Notes: generated by a model not told the origin, from the sequence alone. A stretch of DNA of 64,000 nucleotides from Desulfovibrio sp. (GCA_031279825.1 JAITHT010000081.1:62001-126000), one strand, 5' to 3'. Positions 49,594 to 61,366 are shown, counted from the stretch's first letter. Made by a program: numbers and translations.

Positions 49594-50259
49594 TTAATCC
49601 CGTAGCACCGCAAAGCGGTCCACGTCCGTGGATTCAAAAACCCGGTAAATATGAAGAACGGCAATACCCATAACAAAAATACCCACCAGAATATCCAAAA
49701 GGATGGAAAGCTCAAGCCACAGATTTTCATACTGGATCATAGGCACGTTCAGAAGATAGATACCGTTTTCCAGTACGAGGTAGCCGAAGATTTGATTCAA
49801 GGCGGTTCGCTGCGTGACAATGAGCAGCAGGCCGGCAAAGATGGTAGTGAAAGAGGTGGGAAACACCTGTGAAAATAGAGCGTTAAAGGTAAGTCCCAGA
49901 CGTCCCGCCAGCCAGAGGGAAAGCATAAAGCCGCATAAGCCGATCAGCACGCAGACTGTACTGCCCACATAAGGTCGCATGGCGGAGAACGGAAGTTGCT
50001 TCATTGTGCGCCAGAGCAGCCAGGGGAGCAAGATTCCTTTGGTGCCGAAAAAAATGGCTGCGACCACCCACGGATAGATAGCGGTTTCTCCGGTATGCAT
50101 CAAAAGAGGCAGCGCGCCGAGCAGCATGCCCTGCAATGCGATAAGCCTGATGCAGACGCGGCGGTGTTCAGCCGCAAGAAGGCTCAAATCCGTGAGCACG
50201 ATGAAGCCCAGGATTACATGCAGCCAGCCCATGGAGGAAAAGAAAGGAACGCCGGACAT
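49594..50259 (-). CDS. hydrogenase-4/Ehr-type membrane subunit E
   Basis: 221 residues, about seven membrane segments. It follows the HyfE pattern: LHVILGFIVLTDLSLLAAEHRRVCIRLIALQGMLLG at the start and IFGYLVLENGIYLLNVPM in the middle, the latter recalling NuoK. It forms part of the membrane arm of the complex. Genes on both sides are at three-base spacing. Confidence 0.88.
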   Translation of the reverse strand: MSGVPFFSSMGWLHVILGFIVLTDLSLLAAEHRRVCIRLIALQGMLLGALPLLMHTGETAIYPWVVAAIFFGTKGILLPWLLWRTMKQLPFSAMRPYVGSTVCVLIGLCGFMLSLWLAGRLGLTFNALFSQVFPTSFTTIFAGLLLIVTQRTALNQIFGYLVLENGIYLLNVPMIQYENLWLELSILLDILVGIFVMGIAVLHIYRVFESTDVDRFAVLRD

Positions 50260-50262
50260 AGA

Positions 50263-51237
50263 CTACCTCCATAAACTCAAGGCCGCAAGACAGGCAAACG
50301 AACCTGCCAGGGTAAGCACTTGAGGTACGCGTTCAAGGCGCAGCCGAGCCATGGCCGACTCCACGCAACCTACCAGTGCGGCAATGCAGAGGATCATCAA
50401 CAACATCGTTCCCGCTTCAAGGGCAAAGGAGGGAAAAGACCCGGCAGGACTGCTTCTTTCGGCAAAACCCCATACACCCGCCTGGGGTATGGCTATCCCG
50501 CTGATAATCAGACAGAATATCCACAGTTTCAGGGATGCCGAGTATTCCAGCAAGGCCAGATCCGGACCGCTGTGATCCAGGATCATAACTTCGTGGATCA
50601 TGGTCAGTTCAAGATGCGTATTGGGATCATCCACAGGTATGCGGCTGTTCTCTACAAGCAGCAATAAAAACAAAGCGATGGCAAGCAAGAGGTACATAGG
50701 CCACTCGGCAAGCCAGAGCGTTGCGGGCAAGCCTCCCAGTATCAAGGAGAGACTGTACTCCCGTGATGCATAAGCGAGCACCATAAGGCAGAAAATCAGG
50801 ATGGGCTCGGCCATGGCGGAGAACAGGCTTTCACGCGCGGCGCCCATGCCCTCAAATGCGCTGCCCGTATCCAGAGCCGCAAGTATAAGCATATAGCGGG
50901 AAAAAGCCAGCAAAGCCGGCATAACGATGAAATCGCCGGGAAACGACAGTACGGCCGGCACTCCGCCGAACGGCAACATGAGCAAGGCCGCCAATGCGGC
51001 GGCAACGCCCGCTACGGGCGCGATGCGAAAAAAGCGCGTGGAGGTCTGCGGATAGACCGAATTCTTGCGCAGCAATTTGTTGATGTCAAAATACAGTTGC
51101 AGGAGCGGCCGCCCCTGTCTGCCGGCCACCTTGGCCTTGACCCGGTTGATAATGCCGAAAAGTAACGGCGCCAGAAGCAGGGAAAGCAGCAGGCATGCGA
51201 TCGAAGCGCAATACTGGGCAGGATACGGCTTGATCAT
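50263..51237 (-). CDS. hydrogenase-4/Ehr-type membrane subunit C (NuoH-like)
   Basis: 324 residues, about eight membrane segments. The NuoH/HyfC family pattern is clear: NRVKAKVAGRQGRPLLQLYFDINKLLRK near the start, ALDTGSAFEGMGAARESLFSAMAEP, and RIPVDDPNTHLELTMIHE, the conserved acidic loop. This subunit joins the Fe-S arm to the pumping subunits. The ATG at 51237 overlaps the upstream stop by four bases (ATGA); the longer frame upstream belongs to the HyfB-like gene. Confidence 0.92.
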   Translation of the reverse strand: MIKPYPAQYCASIACLLLSLLLAPLLFGIINRVKAKVAGRQGRPLLQLYFDINKLLRKNSVYPQTSTRFFRIAPVAGVAAALAALLMLPFGGVPAVLSFPGDFIVMPALLAFSRYMLILAALDTGSAFEGMGAARESLFSAMAEPILIFCLMVLAYASREYSLSLILGGLPATLWLAEWPMYLLLAIALFLLLLVENSRIPVDDPNTHLELTMIHEVMILDHSGPDLALLEYSASLKLWIFCLIISGIAIPQAGVWGFAERSSPAGSFPSFALEAGTMLLMILCIAALVGCVESAMARLRLERVPQVLTLAGSFACLAALSLWR

Positions 51238-53231
51238 GTCCACTCCAGAGCCCAGAAAAGGGCAATGAGCAACGCTGCAAGAATGTATAAGATATACAGA
51301 TTGACCAATCCCCGTTGCAGGCCCTTGGCCGATTCGGCCAAAAAGGCTACCGGCCGGAAAAGCAGCCTGTTCCATAGCGAAGTGGGCCAATCAGCCACTT
51401 CCATACTCGCCGTCGCCTCAGACGGGAAAAAAGCGTCCATACGCGGCAGGCGCAGGCGCGCTCGTATCAAGGGTTGCAGAATGGAAGCCAAGCTGTGGGC
51501 AAAAGAGCCTCCGGAATATTGCATGCGCGCTGTGGGTCGGCAGTAGCCGCAATCCCATGTAATACCTTCTTCAGGAGGATATTTGGCCGCAAGAAAACGT
51601 CTTCCTCCGGCAATCAGCGCGCAGGCCAGTAAAAGCAGGCATCCCGTCAGGGCGTACCATGCGAGCAGATCGCCGCCCAAAACAAAATCCGCTTCCACGA
51701 GGGGAGCTGACGGGTAAAGCGTTTGGGAAAACCATTGCAGTGCAATGCGCAATGCGCGTAGCAGAAAGGGACCGGCCAGACTTGCCCACAGGCAGGATGC
51801 CGCCAGAAATACCATAATCAGGCGAAGTTGCGTTTCCGGTTCGCAGGCGTCGTCGCTTTCCCGTCCTCGCGGCGAGCCCAGAAAGGCAAGGCCGAAAAGG
51901 CGGGCGAACGCGAACAGCGCCAAGCCGGCGATGCACCCCAGAACAAAAAAGGCCGCCCAGAAAATCAGGGAAGATTCTGTTCCGCGCGCGGCATCGGAGC
52001 CCAGGGCAAACCCGAGATAGATCAGCATTTCGCTCATGAATCCGTTGAAGGGAGGCATACCGGCGATGGCGGCCGCCCCCATGGCAAAGCATCCGCCGGT
52101 AAGCGGCAGGCGTTTGTATAATCCCCCCAGGTGCTGGATCTGTGTCGTGTGCGTTCCTTCTTTGACTGCGTTGGCCGCGAGAAACAGCAGACTTTTGAAA
52201 AGCGAATGGTTCCACATATGCAGAAAAGCGCCGGCGAGCAACAACGCCATGGCGACGGAAGCTCCGTTGCGACCGGCCAGAAGAGCGGCACCCAGGGCCA
52301 TGCAGATGATGCCCATATTTTCAGCGCTGGAGTAAGCCAGCGTACGCTTCATGTCCGACTGGGCCGCCCCCAGCAGGATGCCCAGTACCCCGGAAAAAGC
52401 CCCCACTCCCATAAGCGTATAGCTCCACCATGGGTCTCCGGGGCCGAACAGGCTGACAATACGGAAGATGCCGTACATGCCCATGTTCAGCATAGTGCCG
52501 GAAAGCAGCACGGCGACATGTCCCGGCGCTGACGAGTGCGCCTCCGGCATCCACATGTGCAGAGGGATGATACCGCATTTGGCACCAAAGCCGATCAAGG
52601 CCAGTATCAGAAAAATTCCTGCGTTTGCGTGGCCGGCAAGGTTCATATAGGAGGTAAAATCCGAAGCCCCCGCCTCTGTGGTCAGCATGGCGAAAAGAAG
52701 CAGGAGAGGCAGGGCGCCGAGATGCGCGGCCACAAGGTATATCCAGCCCGCAAAACGCTCATCGCCCGTTTTGTCGCTATGAGACAGCAAGAAAAACGGC
52801 GCCAGCGACATAATCTCCCAGAGAATCAAAAAAAGCGCTCCGTCAGCGGCGAGAAGCACCATAGCCATAGCGGCTATGAGCAGGCAGAAAAAAAAAGCAT
52901 GCCTGCCGTGACGCAGTTGATCCGCAAGCAGCCGCATTCTGGCCGGAGCGGCGAGAGATGCCAGGCCGGAAAGCAGAAACAGGGGAATGAGAAACACGCA
53001 TGAAAGCGGATCCAGTTGGAGAAGCACTGTTCCCAGCGGCAAAGCAACCGGCGGCGCTACCGTGTGGACGGTCCCCTCCCAGAGGGAGGCGCCGGCGCCG
53101 GCGAGTCCCAGAATCGCGGCCGGAACGATAAACCAGGGAAGAAAACGCCCGGAGTCCCTGGTCGAGCCGCACGACAAACATACAAGGGCGCAGCAGCAAA
53201 TGAGGACAACAGCAGCAAGAATACAGATCAT
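51234..53231 (-). CDS. hydrogenase-4/Ehr-type membrane subunit B (NuoL-like)
   Basis: 665 residues and about 16 membrane segments. HyfB/HycC-like: LIAAMAMVLLAADGALFLILWEIMSLAPFFLLSHSDK, GFGAKCGIIPLHMWMPEAHSSAPGHVAVLLSGTMLNMGMYG and RTLALSSAENMGIICMALG-like blocks. It holds the key lysines and glutamates of the pumping channel. It is the first gene of the leftward operon. ATG 53231 is preferred; a GTG at 53273 lies inside the family 1 repeat, so it is less likely. Confidence 0.9.
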   Translation of the reverse strand: MICILAAVVLICCCALVCLSCGSTRDSGRFLPWFIVPAAILGLAGAGASLWEGTVHTVAPPVALPLGTVLLQLDPLSCVFLIPLFLLSGLASLAAPARMRLLADQLRHGRHAFFFCLLIAAMAMVLLAADGALFLILWEIMSLAPFFLLSHSDKTGDERFAGWIYLVAAHLGALPLLLLFAMLTTEAGASDFTSYMNLAGHANAGIFLILALIGFGAKCGIIPLHMWMPEAHSSAPGHVAVLLSGTMLNMGMYGIFRIVSLFGPGDPWWSYTLMGVGAFSGVLGILLGAAQSDMKRTLAYSSAENMGIICMALGAALLAGRNGASVAMALLLAGAFLHMWNHSLFKSLLFLAANAVKEGTHTTQIQHLGGLYKRLPLTGGCFAMGAAAIAGMPPFNGFMSEMLIYLGFALGSDAARGTESSLIFWAAFFVLGCIAGLALFAFARLFGLAFLGSPRGRESDDACEPETQLRLIMVFLAASCLWASLAGPFLLRALRIALQWFSQTLYPSAPLVEADFVLGGDLLAWYALTGCLLLLACALIAGGRRFLAAKYPPEEGITWDCGYCRPTARMQYSGGSFAHSLASILQPLIRARLRLPRMDAFFPSEATASMEVADWPTSLWNRLLFRPVAFLAESAKGLQRGLVNLYILYILAALLIALFWALEWT

Positions 53232-53261
53232 ACGGCACAGCGGGGCTACAGAATTCAGACC

Positions 53262-53388
53262 AGAGCGGAACACCTTTGAAAGGCGGCATTCGCCGTTTAC
53301 GATGAAAACACGTTTCGCCTACTCTTCGTGTGTGCGGGTCGGCGTTTACGCTACCGGCTGCCAGAGCATTTTCACTGAAAATGTTCTG
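53262..53388 (-). repeat. dispersed structured repeat, family 1, copy C
   Basis: Reverse-oriented copy with AGAGCGGAACACCTTTGAAA at its left edge, a GATGAAAACACGTTTCGCC block, CTACCGGCTGCC and a closing AGCATTTTCACTGAAAATG. It is more diverged than the copy at 10082. It overlaps the alternative GTG start of the HyfB-like gene. Confidence 0.75.
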
Positions 53389-53628: not shown

Positions 53629-54906
53629 TTACATCTTGGCGCCGGAAGCGGCTCCCTGCATTTTGACTTCCACTTTCTCGGTCAGGCTGGCATAGTATTC
53701 ACGCAGGATGTCCAGCACTTCGTCGCGACCGAAGTGATCCGGAATGGCGCTGCCGTCGGAAAGCATTTTCCGCAGCTTGGTACCGGACAGAATGACGCGG
53801 TCGTCTTTGCCGTGCGGGCAGGTACGCAGGGAGGCCATGCCGTCGCACTTGGTGCAGTAAAAGGTCCAGTCAATTTTTAAAGGCTGGCAGAGCAGGTCTT
53901 TAGCCGGGTTGCCCGTGACCGGGATACGATTGAAAATATCCTGAGCTTCGAACATGCCGTAGAAATCCCCCACTCCAGCATGATCGCGGCCGACAATAAG
54001 CCGGTTCATTCCGAAATTCTGACGGAACAAAGCGTGGAGCAACGCTTCACGCGGACCGGCATAGCGCATGTCAAGGGGATAGCCGGCCTGGATGACGTGA
54101 TCTTTCACAAAATACAATTCAACAAGCTTGTTGATGGCCGGCACGCGCACTTCAGCAGGAATGTCGCCGGGCTTCAGATTACCGATCAAAGAATGGATCA
54201 CCACGCCGTCGCACACTTCGACGGCGATTTTCGCCAAATATTCATGGGAACGGTGCATAGGATTACGAAGTTGCAGGGCGGCAACGGTGCTCCAGCCACG
54301 CTTGTCCAATTCGGCGCGCAGCACGCTGGGACGCATGTATACGCCGGCATAATCTTTGGGATAACGCCCTTCGGAAAGCACCTTTACCGGACCGGCCAAG
54401 TTGAATTCCTTCTGCTCCATCACCATCTTGACGCCGGGGTGATCCTTTTCGGCTACTTGCCAGAATTTACTGTCGGAAGAATCTTCGCCGGCACCCTTAA
54501 AGATCGTTTCGCATTCCCACTTTTTTTCCGCGGCGGTCAGGGCGTATTTTTCCGTCACTTTCATCGTGGCGTATATCTCGTCCTTGAAAACCAGAGCGAT
54601 TTCATCATTGACGCTGATGGCGCCGGCCTCGTCCTTGTTTGCGTCAAGGGTAACGGGCACGGGCCAGAAGGTTCCGTCAGCAAGGGTGAACTTCTCGCAA
54701 ACGTTTTTCCAGTCGGCTTTAGTCATGAATCCGTTCAGGGGAGAGAATCCGCCGATACCCATCATAATCAGGTCGCCGCGTACACGAGGACTGATTTCCA
54801 CCTTCTTGAGGCCTGCCGCTTTCTTTACTTCAGCTTCACGGGCAGCGCCTTCAAGCAGACTGCAAACAAGGCCTTTGCCACCATGTGGAGGGACCAGTTT
54901 GGACAT
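53629..54906 (-). CDS. sat: dissimilatory sulfate adenylyltransferase
   Basis: 425 residues. It activates sulfate with ATP to adenosine phosphosulfate, the first step of sulfate respiration. Motifs are [12 protein letters not shown] (the active-site QxRNPxHxxH block) and GRDHAGVG. Cysteines in [16 protein letters not shown] form the zinc-like site found in the bacterial dissimilatory enzymes. The start has GAGGAG upstream. A 28-nt palindrome follows the stop, and a candidate regulatory dyad lies about 110-140 bases upstream. Confidence 0.97.
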
Positions 54907-55582: not shown

Positions 55583-58500
55583 ATGCGAGAATTTTTGGCG
55601 GATCTTCACATCCACTCCCGTTTTTCCAGGGCGACCAGTCCCAGGTTGAGCGTTCCTCTTTTGGCGGCATGGGCCGGACTCAAAGGGCTCGATGTGCTCG
55701 GCAGCGGCGATTTTACCCACCCCCGGTGGCGCGAAGAATTGCGGCAGCAGGTGATCTACGAAGAGGCGAGCGGTCTTTATCTCCTGCGGGATCCGCAATC
55801 CGCGCACGCCGTCCTGCCCGAACTGCCGGTGGCCGCCATGCGGGGGAAAAGGGCGATCCCGCCGCCTTCAAACATGGAGACGCCTTCTGACGGCGACGCG
55901 GCGAACGTCCGTTTTATGCTGCAAGGGGAAATCAGCTCCATTTATAAACGCGGCGGCAAGGTGCGCAAAGTCCACAATCTGGTCTTTATGCCTAACTTTG
56001 AAGCGGCGGAACGTTTCTGTCTGCGACTTGAGCAGGTGGGGAATCTTCATTCCGACGGCCGCCCCATACTCGGCCTGGATTCCCGCGATCTGCTGGAACT
56101 GGTGCTTGAAACCCATCCCTCGGCTTTTCTTGTGCCCGCGCATATATGGACGCCATGGTTTTCCCTGTTCGGCTCAAAATCCGGTTTTGACAGAATGGAA
56201 GATTGTTTCGGTGACCTGACGGGAGAAATTTTCGCCCTGGAAACCGGCCTTTCTTCCGATCCGGCCATGAACCGCCTGTGGAGCGCTTTGGATAACTGCC
56301 GTCTTGTTTCCAATTCCGATGCCCACTCGGGTGAGAATCTCGGGCGCGAGGCCAATATCTTTGCCGGAGCCGTCAGTTATGACGGTATGCTTAAGGCATT
56401 GAAATATCCCCGGCAGACAGGGGATACGGCTTTTCTCGGCACCATTGAATTTTTTCCTGAAGAAGGCAAATACCATATGGACGGGCACCGCAAGTGCGGC
56501 ATTGTCCTCACCCCGGCGCAAACCCGCGAATGCGGCGGCGTCTGCCCGGCGTGCGGCGCTCCTGTGACCGTAGGAGTTCTTAACCGGGTGATGGAATTGG
56601 CGGATCGCGAAGAACCCCTTTACGGATCTGAGCCGGAAGGGGGAACAGGAGTCGCCCGCGACGGCGGTTTCGCCTCATTGGCGCCTTTGTCCGAGATCCT
56701 GGGGGAGATCCTCGGCAGCGGCTCCAAAACGCGCAAGGTAGGCGACATGTATGCCAAAGCCCTGGAGCGCTTCGGGCCGGAATTGACTATTTTGCGCCGC
56801 ACTCCCGAGGATGCGTTGGCGCGTTTCTTCCCTCCTCTGGGGGAGGCCGTCGCGCGTATGCGCCGGGGGCAGGTACATCTGCAAGGGGGCTATGACGGAG
56901 CATACGGCGTGGTGCGTATGTTCACCGATAAGGAACGCAAAGAACTCATGCGCGGGGCGGTTCCCGTTCCGCGCAAAAAAAACGACGGCGCGACCGTGTC
57001 CCTGCCGTTAATGGCACAATCCCCTCCCCCTACCGACGACGATAACGAGGAGTTCCTCTTTTCCGATCAAGACGTTTCGCAAGAGACACCGCCGGAAATC
57101 CCCCTGCCCCTTCCGGAACAAGGCAAACGTCTCCGGGTGCCCGGCATTGTCGATGGAGAAGTCCCGCTCATGCCTCCGTACAACGGTTCCGCGGGTATCG
57201 CCGCTTTGGGCGGCGCTCCTGCGACCCTTTCCGCGGATGTTCCGGCCACGCATTTTCCGGATTCTCCTTCTTCTCACAGCGTCCTTGCCGTTCCTTCTCC
57301 GGAAGGGGAAAACCCAGCCCCAAGACAGCGTATTGCCTCTCTCGATCTTACCCTGTCTCCCGACGAGTATCCCCCTTTGCCGAAAAACGACATCCCGGCG
57401 CGTTTCAAAACGCCGGCTGTCTCCGGCGTTTCCGCGTCGCAGGTCAGGGACGTCCCGCTCCCTACTGCTCCGCTTCACGCTACGGAAGCTCTCTCGCCGC
57501 AAAAAACGGATCATTCGCAAGAAAGGGCGGTACAGGCTGGCCCCGGCCCGGTGCTGGTGCTGGCCGGGCCGGGCACGGGCAAAACCAGGACGCTCATCGC
57601 CCGCATGCTCTCTCTGCTGGACAAAGGAATAAGCCCCCGGCGCATTCTCGCCGTTACCTTTACCCGGCGGGCGGCTTCGGAGATGGACAGCCGTCTTTCG
57701 GCCGCCTTGGGAACGCAAGTCCCTCTGCCCCGTACCGACACCTTGCACGCCCTGGCTCTGGAGGTTTGGCATAAAACCAACAGGGATACGCCCATCCTGC
57801 TTTCCGAAGAAAACGCTCGCCGGGTCTTTGCCGAGGCTAACAGCGAAGAGAGCGCCCAACTCGTGCGCGAAGGGTGGCAAATCGTTAATCTTTCCCGTGA
57901 GCGTCTGGAAATGCCCCCTCCGGAATTCGTCGAGATGGGCAGGCGTTACATGCGCGCCAAAACCGCCTGGAATCTGCTTGATTATACCGATTTGCTGGAA
58001 TTCTGGCTGGAACGGGTCATGGGGAATCTCTTCACCCGCCCATGGGATCACGTGCTGGTGGATGAGGTGCAGGATCTTTCCCTTCTGCAGCTTACGTTGG
58101 CGCGCTCTCTCTTGCCTGCTTCCGGAGAGGGTTTTTTCGCCATCGGCGACCCGTATCAGTCCATTTATTCCTTTCGGGGCGCGTACGGGCAATGCAGGCA
58201 ATTTCTGAGCGCGGCCTGGCCGGATCTTGAAATCATCCGCCTCCGCCACAACTATCGTTCGCTTAGCGGCATCGTAGAGGCCGCGAGAGCCGTTCTCGGC
58301 AGGCAGGCCGACGGCGCGCCTTTGCTCTCCGTTCGCGGCCGGCAGGCTTCCATTCATTTGTTTGAAGCTCCCGGCGCGGATGCGGAGGCCGCCTGGATAG
58401 CCGGGCGCATCAGCGGTCTTATCGGCCTCGGCAGCCACACTCTCGCCGATGCGGCGAAATCCGGGAAAAAAAACCTCCCGGCGCAATGCGTCCGCGCAAG

Positions 58501-59341
58501 GGAAACAGCCGCCTTCACGCCCCCTGCGGAGCGGATTGCGCGAACTTCGCAGGAGGCTGTGCTCCCGGATGACGATGCAAGGTACAGCCCCGGCGACTTC
58601 GCCATACTCGTCCGTACCCATGCCCTGGGTGCTCCGTACCGTAAAGCTTTGGCTCGGGCGGGCGTCCCTGTATCCGACCCCGCAGCCGACGCCTTTTGGG
58701 CCGATGAACGGGTCGCTCTGATACTCCACGCCGCCGGACGTATGCTCGGTATCGCCGTTGATACCATCGGCGATGCGACTCCCGCCTTCCCCGATAAAAT
58801 TTTGGCAAAGGGCCCGTTAAGCGTTGCCGCCTATATGTCTTCCTCTCCTCCCTTTGACGCGCTGTTCTGGCAGTCCGCAGCCTTTCGTTCCCTGGTAAAA
58901 GCGTACGAAGCCAACGGAGGATGGGCGGAATTGATCTCCTGGATTTCCTTGCAGGACGAACTTGAATTGGTGCGCGGCAAAGCTGAAAAGGTACAGATCG
59001 TCAGCCTGCATGCGGCTAAAGGCCTGGAGTTTCGAGTTATTTTTCTCCCGTGCCTTGAAGACGGCCTGCTCCCCTTTGCCGGGTACGAACTTCTTACCGG
59101 CAAGTTGCCGGAAAAAAGCGTCCGCTTTGACCTTGAGGAGGAACAACGCCTCTTCTATGTGGGTATCACGAGGGCCAAAGATGCCCTTTACCTTTCCTGC
59201 GCCGCCAAGCGGCTTCTCTATGGCCGCGAACTGCGCCTCAAGCCTTCCCGCTTTCTTGCCTGCCTGCCTGAAGAACTTTTCTCCCGTTCAACCCTCGTGG
59301 CCCGCACCAGACGCAAGGAACACCAACTCACACTCTTATGA
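55583..59341 (+). CDS. EndoQ-like PHP nuclease fused to UvrD/Rep-type helicase
   Basis: 1252 residues. The N-terminal part (about 1-440) matches the endonuclease Q / TIGR00375 PHP family: FLADLHIHSRFSRATS (D-x-H-x-H metal site), GSGDFTHPRW, the EISS block, an HNLVFMPN segment, VPAHIWTPW and VSNSDAHSG. A zinc-binding set of cysteines is in RKCGI...RECGGVCPACG. EndoQ cuts DNA at deaminated bases. A Pro-rich linker follows, then a superfamily 1 helicase: AGPGTGKTRT (about 659), VTFTRRAASEM, LVDEVQDLSLLQ (about 822), IGDPYQSIYSFRG, LRHNYRS, SLHAAKGLEF and FYVGITRAKDAL. The fusion suggests a nick-and-unwind repair enzyme. Confidence 0.9.
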   Translation: MREFLADLHIHSRFSRATSPRLSVPLLAAWAGLKGLDVLGSGDFTHPRWREELRQQVIYEEASGLYLLRDPQSAHAVLPELPVAAMRGKRAIPPPSNMETPSDGDAANVRFMLQGEISSIYKRGGKVRKVHNLVFMPNFEAAERFCLRLEQVGNLHSDGRPILGLDSRDLLELVLETHPSAFLVPAHIWTPWFSLFGSKSGFDRMEDCFGDLTGEIFALETGLSSDPAMNRLWSALDNCRLVSNSDAHSGENLGREANIFAGAVSYDGMLKALKYPRQTGDTAFLGTIEFFPEEGKYHMDGHRKCGIVLTPAQTRECGGVCPACGAPVTVGVLNRVMELADREEPLYGSEPEGGTGVARDGGFASLAPLSEILGEILGSGSKTRKVGDMYAKALERFGPELTILRRTPEDALARFFPPLGEAVARMRRGQVHLQGGYDGAYGVVRMFTDKERKELMRGAVPVPRKKNDGATVSLPLMAQSPPPTDDDNEEFLFSDQDVSQETPPEIPLPLPEQGKRLRVPGIVDGEVPLMPPYNGSAGIAALGGAPATLSADVPATHFPDSPSSHSVLAVPSPEGENPAPRQRIASLDLTLSPDEYPPLPKNDIPARFKTPAVSGVSASQVRDVPLPTAPLHATEALSPQKTDHSQERAVQAGPGPVLVLAGPGTGKTRTLIARMLSLLDKGISPRRILAVTFTRRAASEMDSRLSAALGTQVPLPRTDTLHALALEVWHKTNRDTPILLSEENARRVFAEANSEESAQLVREGWQIVNLSRERLEMPPPEFVEMGRRYMRAKTAWNLLDYTDLLEFWLERVMGNLFTRPWDHVLVDEVQDLSLLQLTLARSLLPASGEGFFAIGDPYQSIYSFRGAYGQCRQFLSAAWPDLEIIRLRHNYRSLSGIVEAARAVLGRQADGAPLLSVRGRQASIHLFEAPGADAEAAWIAGRISGLIGLGSHTLADAAKSGKKNLPAQCVRARETAAFTPPAERIARTSQEAVLPDDDARYSPGDFAILVRTHALGAPYRKALARAGVPVSDPAADAFWADERVALILHAAGRMLGIAVDTIGDATPAFPDKILAKGPLSVAAYMSSSPPFDALFWQSAAFRSLVKAYEANGGWAELISWISLQDELELVRGKAEKVQIVSLHAAKGLEFRVIFLPCLEDGLLPFAGYELLTGKLPEKSVRFDLEEEQRLFYVGITRAKDALYLSCAAKRLLYGRELRLKPSRFLACLPEELFSRSTLVARTRRKEHQLTLL

Positions 59342-60486
59342 TGGGAGCTTTGCTCGTGAACGACAGGCCGATTTACTTCGACGGCTTCGCTGATCCGGCG
59401 CTTTGCCGGGAACTGCTGGCGCGTCTGCGTCGGGAAATCGCCGAAACCGACGACGGACGTCTGCGGTTCATGGAGGTTTGCGGCACGCATACCGTGGCTA
59501 TTTTCCGTAGCGGCCTGCGTTCTCTCCTGCCTGAAGGGGTGGAGCATCTGTCCGGCCCGGGCTGCCCGGTATGCGTAACCCATGAGAGGGAAATAGCAGC
59601 TTGCACGGCCATGGCGAAAAAGGAGGGCGTGCTGATCGCCACCTTCGGCGATCTTCTGCGCGTGCCAGGCTCCGGCGGGGACAGTCTGCAACAGGCCAAG
59701 GCGGATGGGGCGGAGATAGAGGTGGTGTATTCTCCTCTGGATGCCCTGAATCTTGCCCGGCAGCGCCGTGACCGCACCGTGGTTTTTTTGGGTGTCGGTT
59801 TTGAAACCACCGCTCCTACCGTGGCCGCCACGGTGCAAATGGCCAGGCAGCGGGACATGGAGAACTTTACCGTACTGACCATGCACAAACTGGTGCCGCC
59901 CGCCCTTGAGGCATTGTTGGCGCAGGATGAGGTTGACGTGGACGCTTTCCTGCTGCCCGGACACGTCTCCACCGTCCTGGGCATACGCCCCTACGCCTTC
60001 ATCGCTGACAGGCATGCGAAACCCGGGGTGGTCGGCGGTTTTGAGCCGGCGGACATTCTTCAATCGCTGCTTCTGATGATCGAGATGCGTAAAATGCGTC
60101 AACCAGCCATAATCAATCAATACCGGCGCGCCGTGGATGATGGCGGCAATCCCCGGGCCCGAGGCATTCTTTTTGACGTCTTCGCGCCGACTGACGCCGT
60201 TTGGCGCGGCATAGGAGTAATTCCGCAAAGCGGTCTTGCCATGCGGGAGGAGTACGCGTCCTTTGATGCCCGGTGCCGCTACGATCTGTGCCTGCCCGAT
60301 ACGCCGGACATTAAAGGCTGCCAGTGCGGCGCTGTGCTTAAGGGCCGGATCGCGCCGAATCAGTGCGCTCTTTTCGGCACGGCCTGCACCCCGGCAAACC
60401 CCGTCGGCCCCTGTATGGTGTCCACGGAAGGCAGTTGCGCCGCTTACTTCACCTATCATCCCGCCGGAAGACTTCCGGCGCGTTAA
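59338..60486 (+). CDS. hypD: hydrogenase maturation protein HypD
   Basis: 382 residues. HypD helps assemble the Fe(CN)2CO group of NiFe hydrogenases. Motifs FMEVCGTHT, GPGCPVCVT, GFETTAPTVA and the C-terminal cysteine set (CQCGAVLKG, CALFGTAC, GPCMVSTEGSC) are complete. Its ATG overlaps the helicase stop by four bases, so the two genes are translationally coupled. larC follows after 13 bases with AAGGAG before it. Confidence 0.95.
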   Translation: MMGALLVNDRPIYFDGFADPALCRELLARLRREIAETDDGRLRFMEVCGTHTVAIFRSGLRSLLPEGVEHLSGPGCPVCVTHEREIAACTAMAKKEGVLIATFGDLLRVPGSGGDSLQQAKADGAEIEVVYSPLDALNLARQRRDRTVVFLGVGFETTAPTVAATVQMARQRDMENFTVLTMHKLVPPALEALLAQDEVDVDAFLLPGHVSTVLGIRPYAFIADRHAKPGVVGGFEPADILQSLLLMIEMRKMRQPAIINQYRRAVDDGGNPRARGILFDVFAPTDAVWRGIGVIPQSGLAMREEYASFDARCRYDLCLPDTPDIKGCQCGAVLKGRIAPNQCALFGTACTPANPVGPCMVSTEGSCAAYFTYHPAGRLPAR

Positions 60487-60499
60487 GGAGTCGCCTTGT

Positions 60500-61366
60500 A
60501 TGTCGACCATAGCTGGCGGTGAGAGCGTTATCCTTTCGGACGAAGGGAGGGGGCCTTCCGCTGACGCGGATGCTCATGGCTGCGGCCACGATCATGGGCA
60601 TAGACATGAAAACACGGCGTCAGCCGCTGACTCCTGCCTTACGGTAAGGGCGATATCCGGCTTGTCGGGCGATATGATTCTTGCGGGGTTGGCCTTGATA
60701 AACGAAGCTTCGCAGGAAGATCTGGATGCCCTTACCGCCGAATTGGATATGGATGTTCTCACCGGCGCATGCAGCCTGGAACGGCGCAGCGTTAATCATA
60801 TAGCGGGCTGGGGGTGTCGTATCCGCCTTCCCCGCGAACATGCCCATCGGGACATGCGCGCCATAACCGACATCATTGAAAAAAGCGCCATGGCGCCGCA
60901 AGCGGCATCTCTGGCGTTGGCGACATTCTCCCTGCTGGCGAATGCGGAAGGCGCGGTGCACGGACTTGCCCCGCATGACGTGGTTTTTCATGAAGTAGGC
61001 GCTTTGGACAGCATTCTGGATATCTGTCTGGCATGTTCGCTGTTTGTCCGCCTTGCGCCCTCCCGTTTCGTGTGCAGTCCTCTGCCCCTCGCCGACGGCG
61101 GCGTGCATTGCGCCCACGGCTGGCTGCCCACCCCGGCGCCGGCGGTGCTTGAATTGCTGCAGGATATTCCCGTGTGCGGTTTTTCCGGTAGAGGAGAAAC
61201 CGTCACCCCCACGGCCATAGCCTTGTTGAGGGGGATGGGGGCGCTTTTCGGCGCGTGGCCGTCCATGCGCATTGAACGCCGCGCCCTGGTTTACGGCAGT
61301 CATGAGTTCAGCGATGCTCCCAACGGCGCCATATGGGCCTTCGGCCCACACTCTCTCCGGATATAG
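60500..61366 (+). CDS. larC: short LarC/DUF111 nickel insertion protein
   Basis: 288 residues. The C-terminal three quarters match the N-terminal part of LarC, which makes the nickel-pincer cofactor by inserting nickel (TVRAISGLSGDMILAGLALI, AHRDMRAITDIIEKS, FHEVGALDSILDICL, LPLADGGVHCAHGWLPTPAPAVLELLQDIPVCGF). Full LarC is about 400 residues; the C-terminal LarC2 part is missing. The N-terminus has a histidine-rich HGCGHDHGHRH, likely to hold nickel. Start 60500 has AAGGAG nine bases upstream. It shares the operon with hypD. Confidence 0.85.
   Translation: MSTIAGGESVILSDEGRGPSADADAHGCGHDHGHRHENTASAADSCLTVRAISGLSGDMILAGLALINEASQEDLDALTAELDMDVLTGACSLERRSVNHIAGWGCRIRLPREHAHRDMRAITDIIEKSAMAPQAASLALATFSLLANAEGAVHGLAPHDVVFHEVGALDSILDICLACSLFVRLAPSRFVCSPLPLADGGVHCAHGWLPTPAPAVLELLQDIPVCGFSGRGETVTPTAIALLRGMGALFGAWPSMRIERRALVYGSHEFSDAPNGAIWAFGPHSLRI

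Follow-up and report, generated by a model that had tools for sequence, protein, structure and literature searches.

A predicted EndoQ-type nuclease fused to a UvrD-like helicase in Desulfovibrio and in many other bacteria

The fusion gene and its product

A stretch of 64,000 nucleotides from Desulfovibrio sp. (GCA_031279825.1, JAITHT010000081.1:62001-126000), the whole of which is called the window here, carries at positions 55583-59341 of the plus strand a single open frame of 1252 codons. Profile searches and searches of PDB sequences divide its translated product into an EndoQ-type nuclease, a linker and a UvrD-like helicase, and the features described below all lie on the same strand. A first-pass annotation of this DNA had placed both halves in one 1252-residue chain, and the motifs, the profile searches, the match to the archaeal enzyme PfuEndoQ and the predicted fold agree on this. 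In a tree of EndoQ domains, the window falls into a 28-row group with Desulfovibrio and Desulfonatronospira records (Shimodaira-Hasegawa-like approximate likelihood ratio test, SH-aLRT, 100), so that its order, one of sulfate reducers, is evidently Desulfovibrionales. The same one-frame fusion is present in all 20 relatives fetched from this order and in all 20 long frames fetched elsewhere in the phylum. Chance is excluded as the source of the motif and profile matches of the gene.

The EndoQ-type PHP nuclease domain occupies residues 1-465 (55583-56977). Among solved structures, the best match of the protein is PfuEndoQ (5zb8 and 7k30; E 5e-44), covering residues 6-55 and 127-446, followed by UvrD, PcrA and Rep, and a search of NCBIfam matched TIGR00375 over residues 114-443 (E 2e-40, 139 bits). 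For residues 1-465, AlphaFold gave a model (alignment A2, 29 sequences) with a predicted local distance difference test score (pLDDT) of 88 and a predicted template-modelling score (pTM) of 0.89. Its template-modelling (TM) score to 5zb8, normalised by the target, is 0.88, while other PHP proteins reach 0.59 at most.

The D-x-H-x-H and GDFTHP motifs named in the first-pass annotation are located at residues 7-11 and 42-47. The former, D7-L-H9-I-H11 (55601-55615), is invariant in all 140 aligned EndoQ domains, and the same is true of E116 (55928-55930), H131 (55973-55975), H187 (56141-56143) and G222-L-S224 (56246-56254). By pairwise alignment, H131 corresponds to the metal ligand H84 of PfuEndoQ, H187 to H139, which is both a metal ligand and a base-pocket residue, G222 and S224 to G169 and S171, and D246-A-H248 (56318-56326) to D193 and H195. 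E116 is the probable counterpart of the metal ligand E76; it is placed by conservation, E76 lying in an unaligned stretch of the pairwise alignment and the spacing to the next His being longer. According to a review (PMC8307549), from which the residue roles are taken together with the PDB sequences, PfuEndoQ variants E76A, H84A and H139A are inactive, and H139, G169 and S171 keep out normal bases and select uracil and hypoxanthine. From the retained residues and the fold, the nuclease half is expected to be catalytically active and to select lesions. D246 is retained in 139 of the 140 domains; the natural D246N change is found in a fused protein of the order (L063:5161-8283, minus strand, genome G021) whose helicase motifs are otherwise present, and it affects the residue altered in crystal entry 7k31 (D193 of PfuEndoQ).

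A presumed zinc site, H302-x2-C305 ... C321-x2-C324 (56486-56554), is conserved in 139-140 of the 140 domains. A cysteine zinc site had been annotated: the conserved cluster is indeed there, but it is made of one His and three Cys rather than of Cys throughout, the first ligand position being Cys in PfuEndoQ and His in nearly all of the 140 homologues.

A low-complexity linker devoid of domain matches follows at about residues 466-640 (56978-57502), and then a superfamily 1A (SF1A) helicase of UvrD/Rep type at about residues 641-1240 (57503-59302). Pfam matches are confined to this half (PF00580 and PF13361; UvrD-helicase 1e-40, UvrD_C 2e-26). The complete helicase motif set that had been annotated is intact in the same frame and, with its catalytic residues, assigns the half to the SF1A UvrD-like superfamily: Walker A GPGTGKT at residues 662-668 (57566-57586), motif II DEVQD at 827-831 (58061-58075), GDPYQSIYSFRGA at 855-867, NYRS at 890-893, SLHAAKGLEF at 1141-1150 and VGITRAK at 1193-1199. 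The catalytic residues K667, D827, E828, Q859, R865, R892 and R1197 are retained in 108-109 of 109 fused or split helicases. The protein stays below the equivalog cut-offs of pcrA (212 of 911 bits), rep (191 of 951) and uvrD (179 of 1144). A tree that includes nine references, namely UvrD and Rep of E. coli and seven UvrD-like helicases from the order, places the fused and split forms apart from all nine (SH-aLRT 98), and the genome of the window also encodes a separate UvrD-like helicase. When modelled at full length, the fused relative L125 (1033 residues) shows two well-folded halves, a disordered linker (pLDDT about 30) and a disordered tail.

The C-terminus carries a candidate beta-clamp-binding motif, QLTLL, at residues 1248-1252 (59324-59338). 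The strict pattern Q[LMIV]x[LMI][FL] occurs within the last 12 residues of 76 out of 104 complete fused proteins, the window included, while shuffling each tail gave 0.5 on average and 5 at maximum; it is also found in five of five split helicases. Furthermore, QxxLF closes many of the EndoQ domains themselves; standalone forms have it at their actual C-terminus, and 39 of the 104 fused ones at the junction with the linker. In archaea, the C-terminal PCNA-interacting (PIP) box of EndoQ binds PCNA with a dissociation constant of 55 nM, PCNA stimulates the enzyme, and clamp-like motifs of bacterial EndoQs were remarked on in the same study (Shiraishi 2016, PMC4858679). Recruitment of the fusion protein to the clamp is thus likely, judging from these motifs, and is not a new idea.

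Distribution, split relatives and neighbouring genes

EndoQ is encoded in 150 of 150 genomes of the order, all at least 95% complete except the window's own, and 146 of them have a frame of at least 1000 residues. Among the 40 nearest genomes (own included, 21 genera), 39 encode at least a portion of the fusion and 37 the EndoQ part; of the remaining three, two have helicase fragments only, on broken contigs, and one is a genome 65% complete. In a sample of the phylum, EndoQ is present in 133 of 198 genomes with frames in two size groups, 51 being 850 residues or longer and the rest mostly 400-510; among 20 of the short frames fetched, one has the helicase as a neighbouring gene. A scan with one genome per species found at least 586 EndoQ-coding stretches. 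The best 80 of them comprise 67 fused forms, four with an adjacent helicase gene, eight alone and one cut off, a selection skewed to fused forms since the fused protein headed the query. Isolates such as Geobacter argillaceus, Saccharopolyspora hirsuta, Phytoactinopolyspora halophila, Glycomyces salinus, Dactylosporangium siamense and Fodinibius roseus are among these 80, as are genomes that carry the labels Planctomycetota, Elusimicrobiota, Fibrobacterota, Spirochaetota, Chloroflexota, KSB1, Binatia and Gastranaerophilales, and fusions span about ten other phyla. The survey of genomes that had been proposed therefore finds the fusion neither rare nor local, and the earlier description of EndoQ as mainly limited to Thermococcales and a few bacteria does not hold.

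At five loci, EndoQ and the same helicase are encoded by neighbouring genes. The EndoQ tree divides into a group of 17 rows, all standalone, and 123 further rows that contain all fused and adjacent forms plus ten standalone ones, although many branches are weak. Because fused and adjacent forms share this group with standalone EndoQs among them, the simplest reading is an old association of EndoQ with the helicase, followed by later splits.

Several relatives in the order depart from the arrangement. In a congener (G007), the halves are found on separate contigs, L198:2131-4470 (minus strand) and L197:2784-4259 (plus strand), and its standalone EndoQ of 491 residues is intact at the motifs read. 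In a single genus of this order, genome G334 (L202) retains an EndoQ frame, and the 8 kb examined there contain no helicase match, while G306 (L201) has an EndoQ shortened by an in-frame stop, with no helicase half found near it and a UDG (uracil-DNA glycosylase) match in the genome. In genome G008 (L200), the EndoQ half is split into two overlapping frames by a frameshift near residue 280-300, an intact helicase frame following, which is either an assembly error or decay. Identity to most relatives of the order is about 56-70% over EndoQ and about 40-60% over the helicase. Taken as natural experiments, G007, G334 and G306 suggest that EndoQ is the more indispensable half.

Downstream, hypD overlaps the fusion gene by 4 bases, its ATG at 59338 lying within the stop of the fusion gene (...TTATGATGG). 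The translational coupling to hypD that had been annotated is thus real as an overlap, but its conservation or meaning is not supported, because hypD adjoins the fusion gene, or its helicase half, only in the window and in one other examined relative, G007. It is missing beside all 20 loci of the order that were retrieved with their flanking DNA, some of these flanks being truncated at contig ends, and a functional link to hypD is rejected. Crude six-frame clustering, in which several clusters resemble reverse-frame noise or large common families, gave no conserved third neighbour around 140 loci. A LarC-like nickel-insertion gene follows hypD at 60236-61366 (+), its match to the Pfam profile being limited to the first 60% (the LarC1 part). 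By sequence impression, large multi-spanning membrane-protein genes like group-4 hydrogenase or complex I membrane subunits occupy 49594-53273 (-), adjoined by a sulfate adenylyltransferase gene at 53629-54906 (-).

Deamination repair in the order and the proposed reaction

Matches to the UDG superfamily were found in 12 of the 40 nearest relatives, 42 of the 150 order genomes, 173 of the 198 genomes of the phylum sample and 13 of 14 control genomes, and EndoV in none of the 40 relatives while six of the 14 controls match; these counts ignore shared ancestry, and divergent UDGs could escape detection. The matches in the order are mostly weak, exceeding 100 bits in three genomes only. The single control with no UDG match is M. 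jannaschii, one of the three controls with EndoQ. Three named Desulfovibrio genomes with the fusion have no UDG match, and the twelve other genomes tested, including Desulfonatronospira, have one. The absence of EndoV from all 40 relatives together with UDG in only 42 of 150 genomes is unusually low for bacteria. The low frequency of UDG may reflect a few losses in one clade. Cooperation of the fusion with EndoV, which cuts with EndoQ on both sides of a lesion (PMC4357722), was considered and is rejected for this order by the count of 0/40.

On the basis of homology, fold, catalytic residues, the linkage of the halves, the clamp-like motif and the distribution, the product is probably a glycosylase-independent repair enzyme, tethered to the clamp, which starts and prepares the excision of deaminated bases by nicking and unwinding. 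The EndoQ half would flip out a uracil, hypoxanthine or abasic residue and nick the backbone 5′ of the lesion, leaving a 3′-OH and a downstream strand that starts with the lesion. The tethered SF1A helicase, presumed to move 3′-to-5′ by its family, would load at the nick, track along the intact strand and peel the lesion strand from its 5′ end. A polymerase could then extend the 3′-OH, and a flap nuclease and ligase would finish the repair. Through its C-terminal motif, the protein probably attaches to the beta clamp, much as the PIP box attaches archaeal EndoQ to PCNA. For archaea, a hypothetical helicase step following the EndoQ nick was already sketched in 2015 (PMC4357722) and repeated in 2021 (PMC8438529). 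The wider claim would be that a two-part module found over about ten phyla serves a whole mesophilic order, most of whose members have no recognisable UDG or EndoV, as its principal deaminated-base repair enzyme and as a main uracil pathway independent of glycosylases; for this we see the balance as even.

Several points weigh against the nick-and-unwind enzyme. What the protein does is predicted from sequence and model: this concerns the two activities and how they are coupled, the polarity, the binding to the clamp, and the role as the main pathway for deoxyuridine and deoxyinosine in most of the order. Separate profile searches of the two halves, as had been suggested, matched TIGR00375 and the UvrD families of Pfam, but the window protein stays below the curated TIGR00375 cut-off of 326.6 bits, which is passed in none of the 198 phylum and none of the 150 order genomes; it is therefore an EndoQ homologue rather than a member of the curated model, itself a hypothetical equivalog. 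The tail QLTLL departs from the canonical form QLxLF of the family, and the pTM of 0.56 for the model of L125 is too low to place its two halves relative to each other. In G007, motifs II, III, V and VI of the helicase half are degenerate, the QLTLL tail and the hypD neighbour being kept, and since EndoQ is intact there, the helicase is not essential everywhere. Finally, UDG accompanies the fused forms outside the order, so that the fusion is not simply its substitute; as a general UDG substitute it is rejected there, where UDG is normally present.

Some of these observations would suit another arrangement, in which EndoQ is the working part and the helicase a tether to DNA or the clamp, or a minor accessory, whose unwinding is unneeded for repair. 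The better conservation of EndoQ, its persistence in G007, where the helicase is degenerate and separated but still ends in QLTLL, the EndoQ frame of G334 and the 27 standalone EndoQs of the tree set all point that way. However, ATPase and helicase catalytic residues retained in 109 helicases of many phyla would be needless for a passive tether, and five loci retain the helicase as a separate adjacent gene, which makes this arrangement unlikely. Somewhat less likely still is a repurposed EndoQ acting in another nick-dependent process, such as strand discrimination linked to mismatches or to replication, in which the clamp would set the strand direction. The logic of mismatch repair likewise suits a UvrD-like helicase together with a clamp motif, and deamination repair would be redundant in most of the other phyla with the fusion, where UDG is present; yet H187, G222 and S224, whose PfuEndoQ counterparts exclude normal bases and select uracil and hypoxanthine (PMC8307549), are invariant.

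Defence against phages whose DNA contains uracil or is base-modified in another way, a role proposed for bacterial EndoQ (review PMC8307549), is quite improbable here: the PADLOC models GajB and RTasHel match the helicase half, but at the level of the helicase superfamily only, no GajA-type or other conserved partner was found near the 140 loci, and presence in every one of the 150 order genomes is housekeeping-like, unlike patchy defence genes. A stand-in for nucleotide excision repair, as a lesion nuclease and a UvrD-like helicase in one chain might suggest and as the first-pass annotation proposed for UvrABC-like steps, is hardly credible because UvrB is present in 40 of 40 relatives, 38 above the curated cut-off and the own genome (1032 bits) among them. 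The better-supported alternative to such a replacement of UvrABC is that the fusion takes the place of uracil-DNA glycosylase and EndoV in this order.

Relation to known systems

An EndoQ homologue of Desulfovibrio was noted in 2015 (PMC4357722). The text of that paper and of PMC4858679, figures aside, does not mention a helicase fusion, and no description of an EndoQ-helicase fusion was found in the literature searched, which did not extend to subscription papers and figures. The new elements are that the fusion forms a conserved module spread widely among bacteria and that, in this order, it coincides with missing UDG and EndoV. EndoQ appears here as a common bacterial module joined to a helicase, the activity proposed earlier for the next step, and the order as bacteria in which the fusion may be the sole dedicated route for uracil in DNA. 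Because the order offers mesophiles with a background lacking UDG and EndoV, deleting this one gene could test the role of EndoQ in living cells.

The helicase half shares the complete SF1A motif set and the domain order with UvrD, PcrA and Rep. It differs from them in its Walker A (GPGTGKT, theirs being GAGSGKT), in its own tree group, in having EndoQ in front and a clamp motif behind, and in a shorter span from NYRS to motif V (253 residues in the window and a median of 211 in the order, as against 280 in E. coli UvrD and Rep). With GajB of Gabija it has in common a UvrD-like helicase partnered with a nuclease; the nuclease here is PHP/EndoQ, whereas GajA is an OLD/TOPRIM nuclease, and a defence context is absent.

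The closest likeness is to Endonuclease Q itself (PfuEndoQ PF1551, TkoEndoQ, MacEndoQ and the Bacillus pumilus EndoQ), with which the fusion protein shares the PHP fold plus a presumed zinc domain and a C-terminal domain, the metal ligands, the base pocket and a candidate sliding-clamp motif at the C-terminus. The known archaeal enzymes are standalone proteins of about 420 residues with a Cys4 zinc site, while the window protein has a fused SF1A helicase, a presumed His-Cys3 site and a score below the TIGR00375 cut-off. The Desulfovibrio EndoQ homologue of Shiraishi et al. (2015, 2016; PMC4357722, PMC4858679) almost certainly belongs to the same family as the fusion protein described here.

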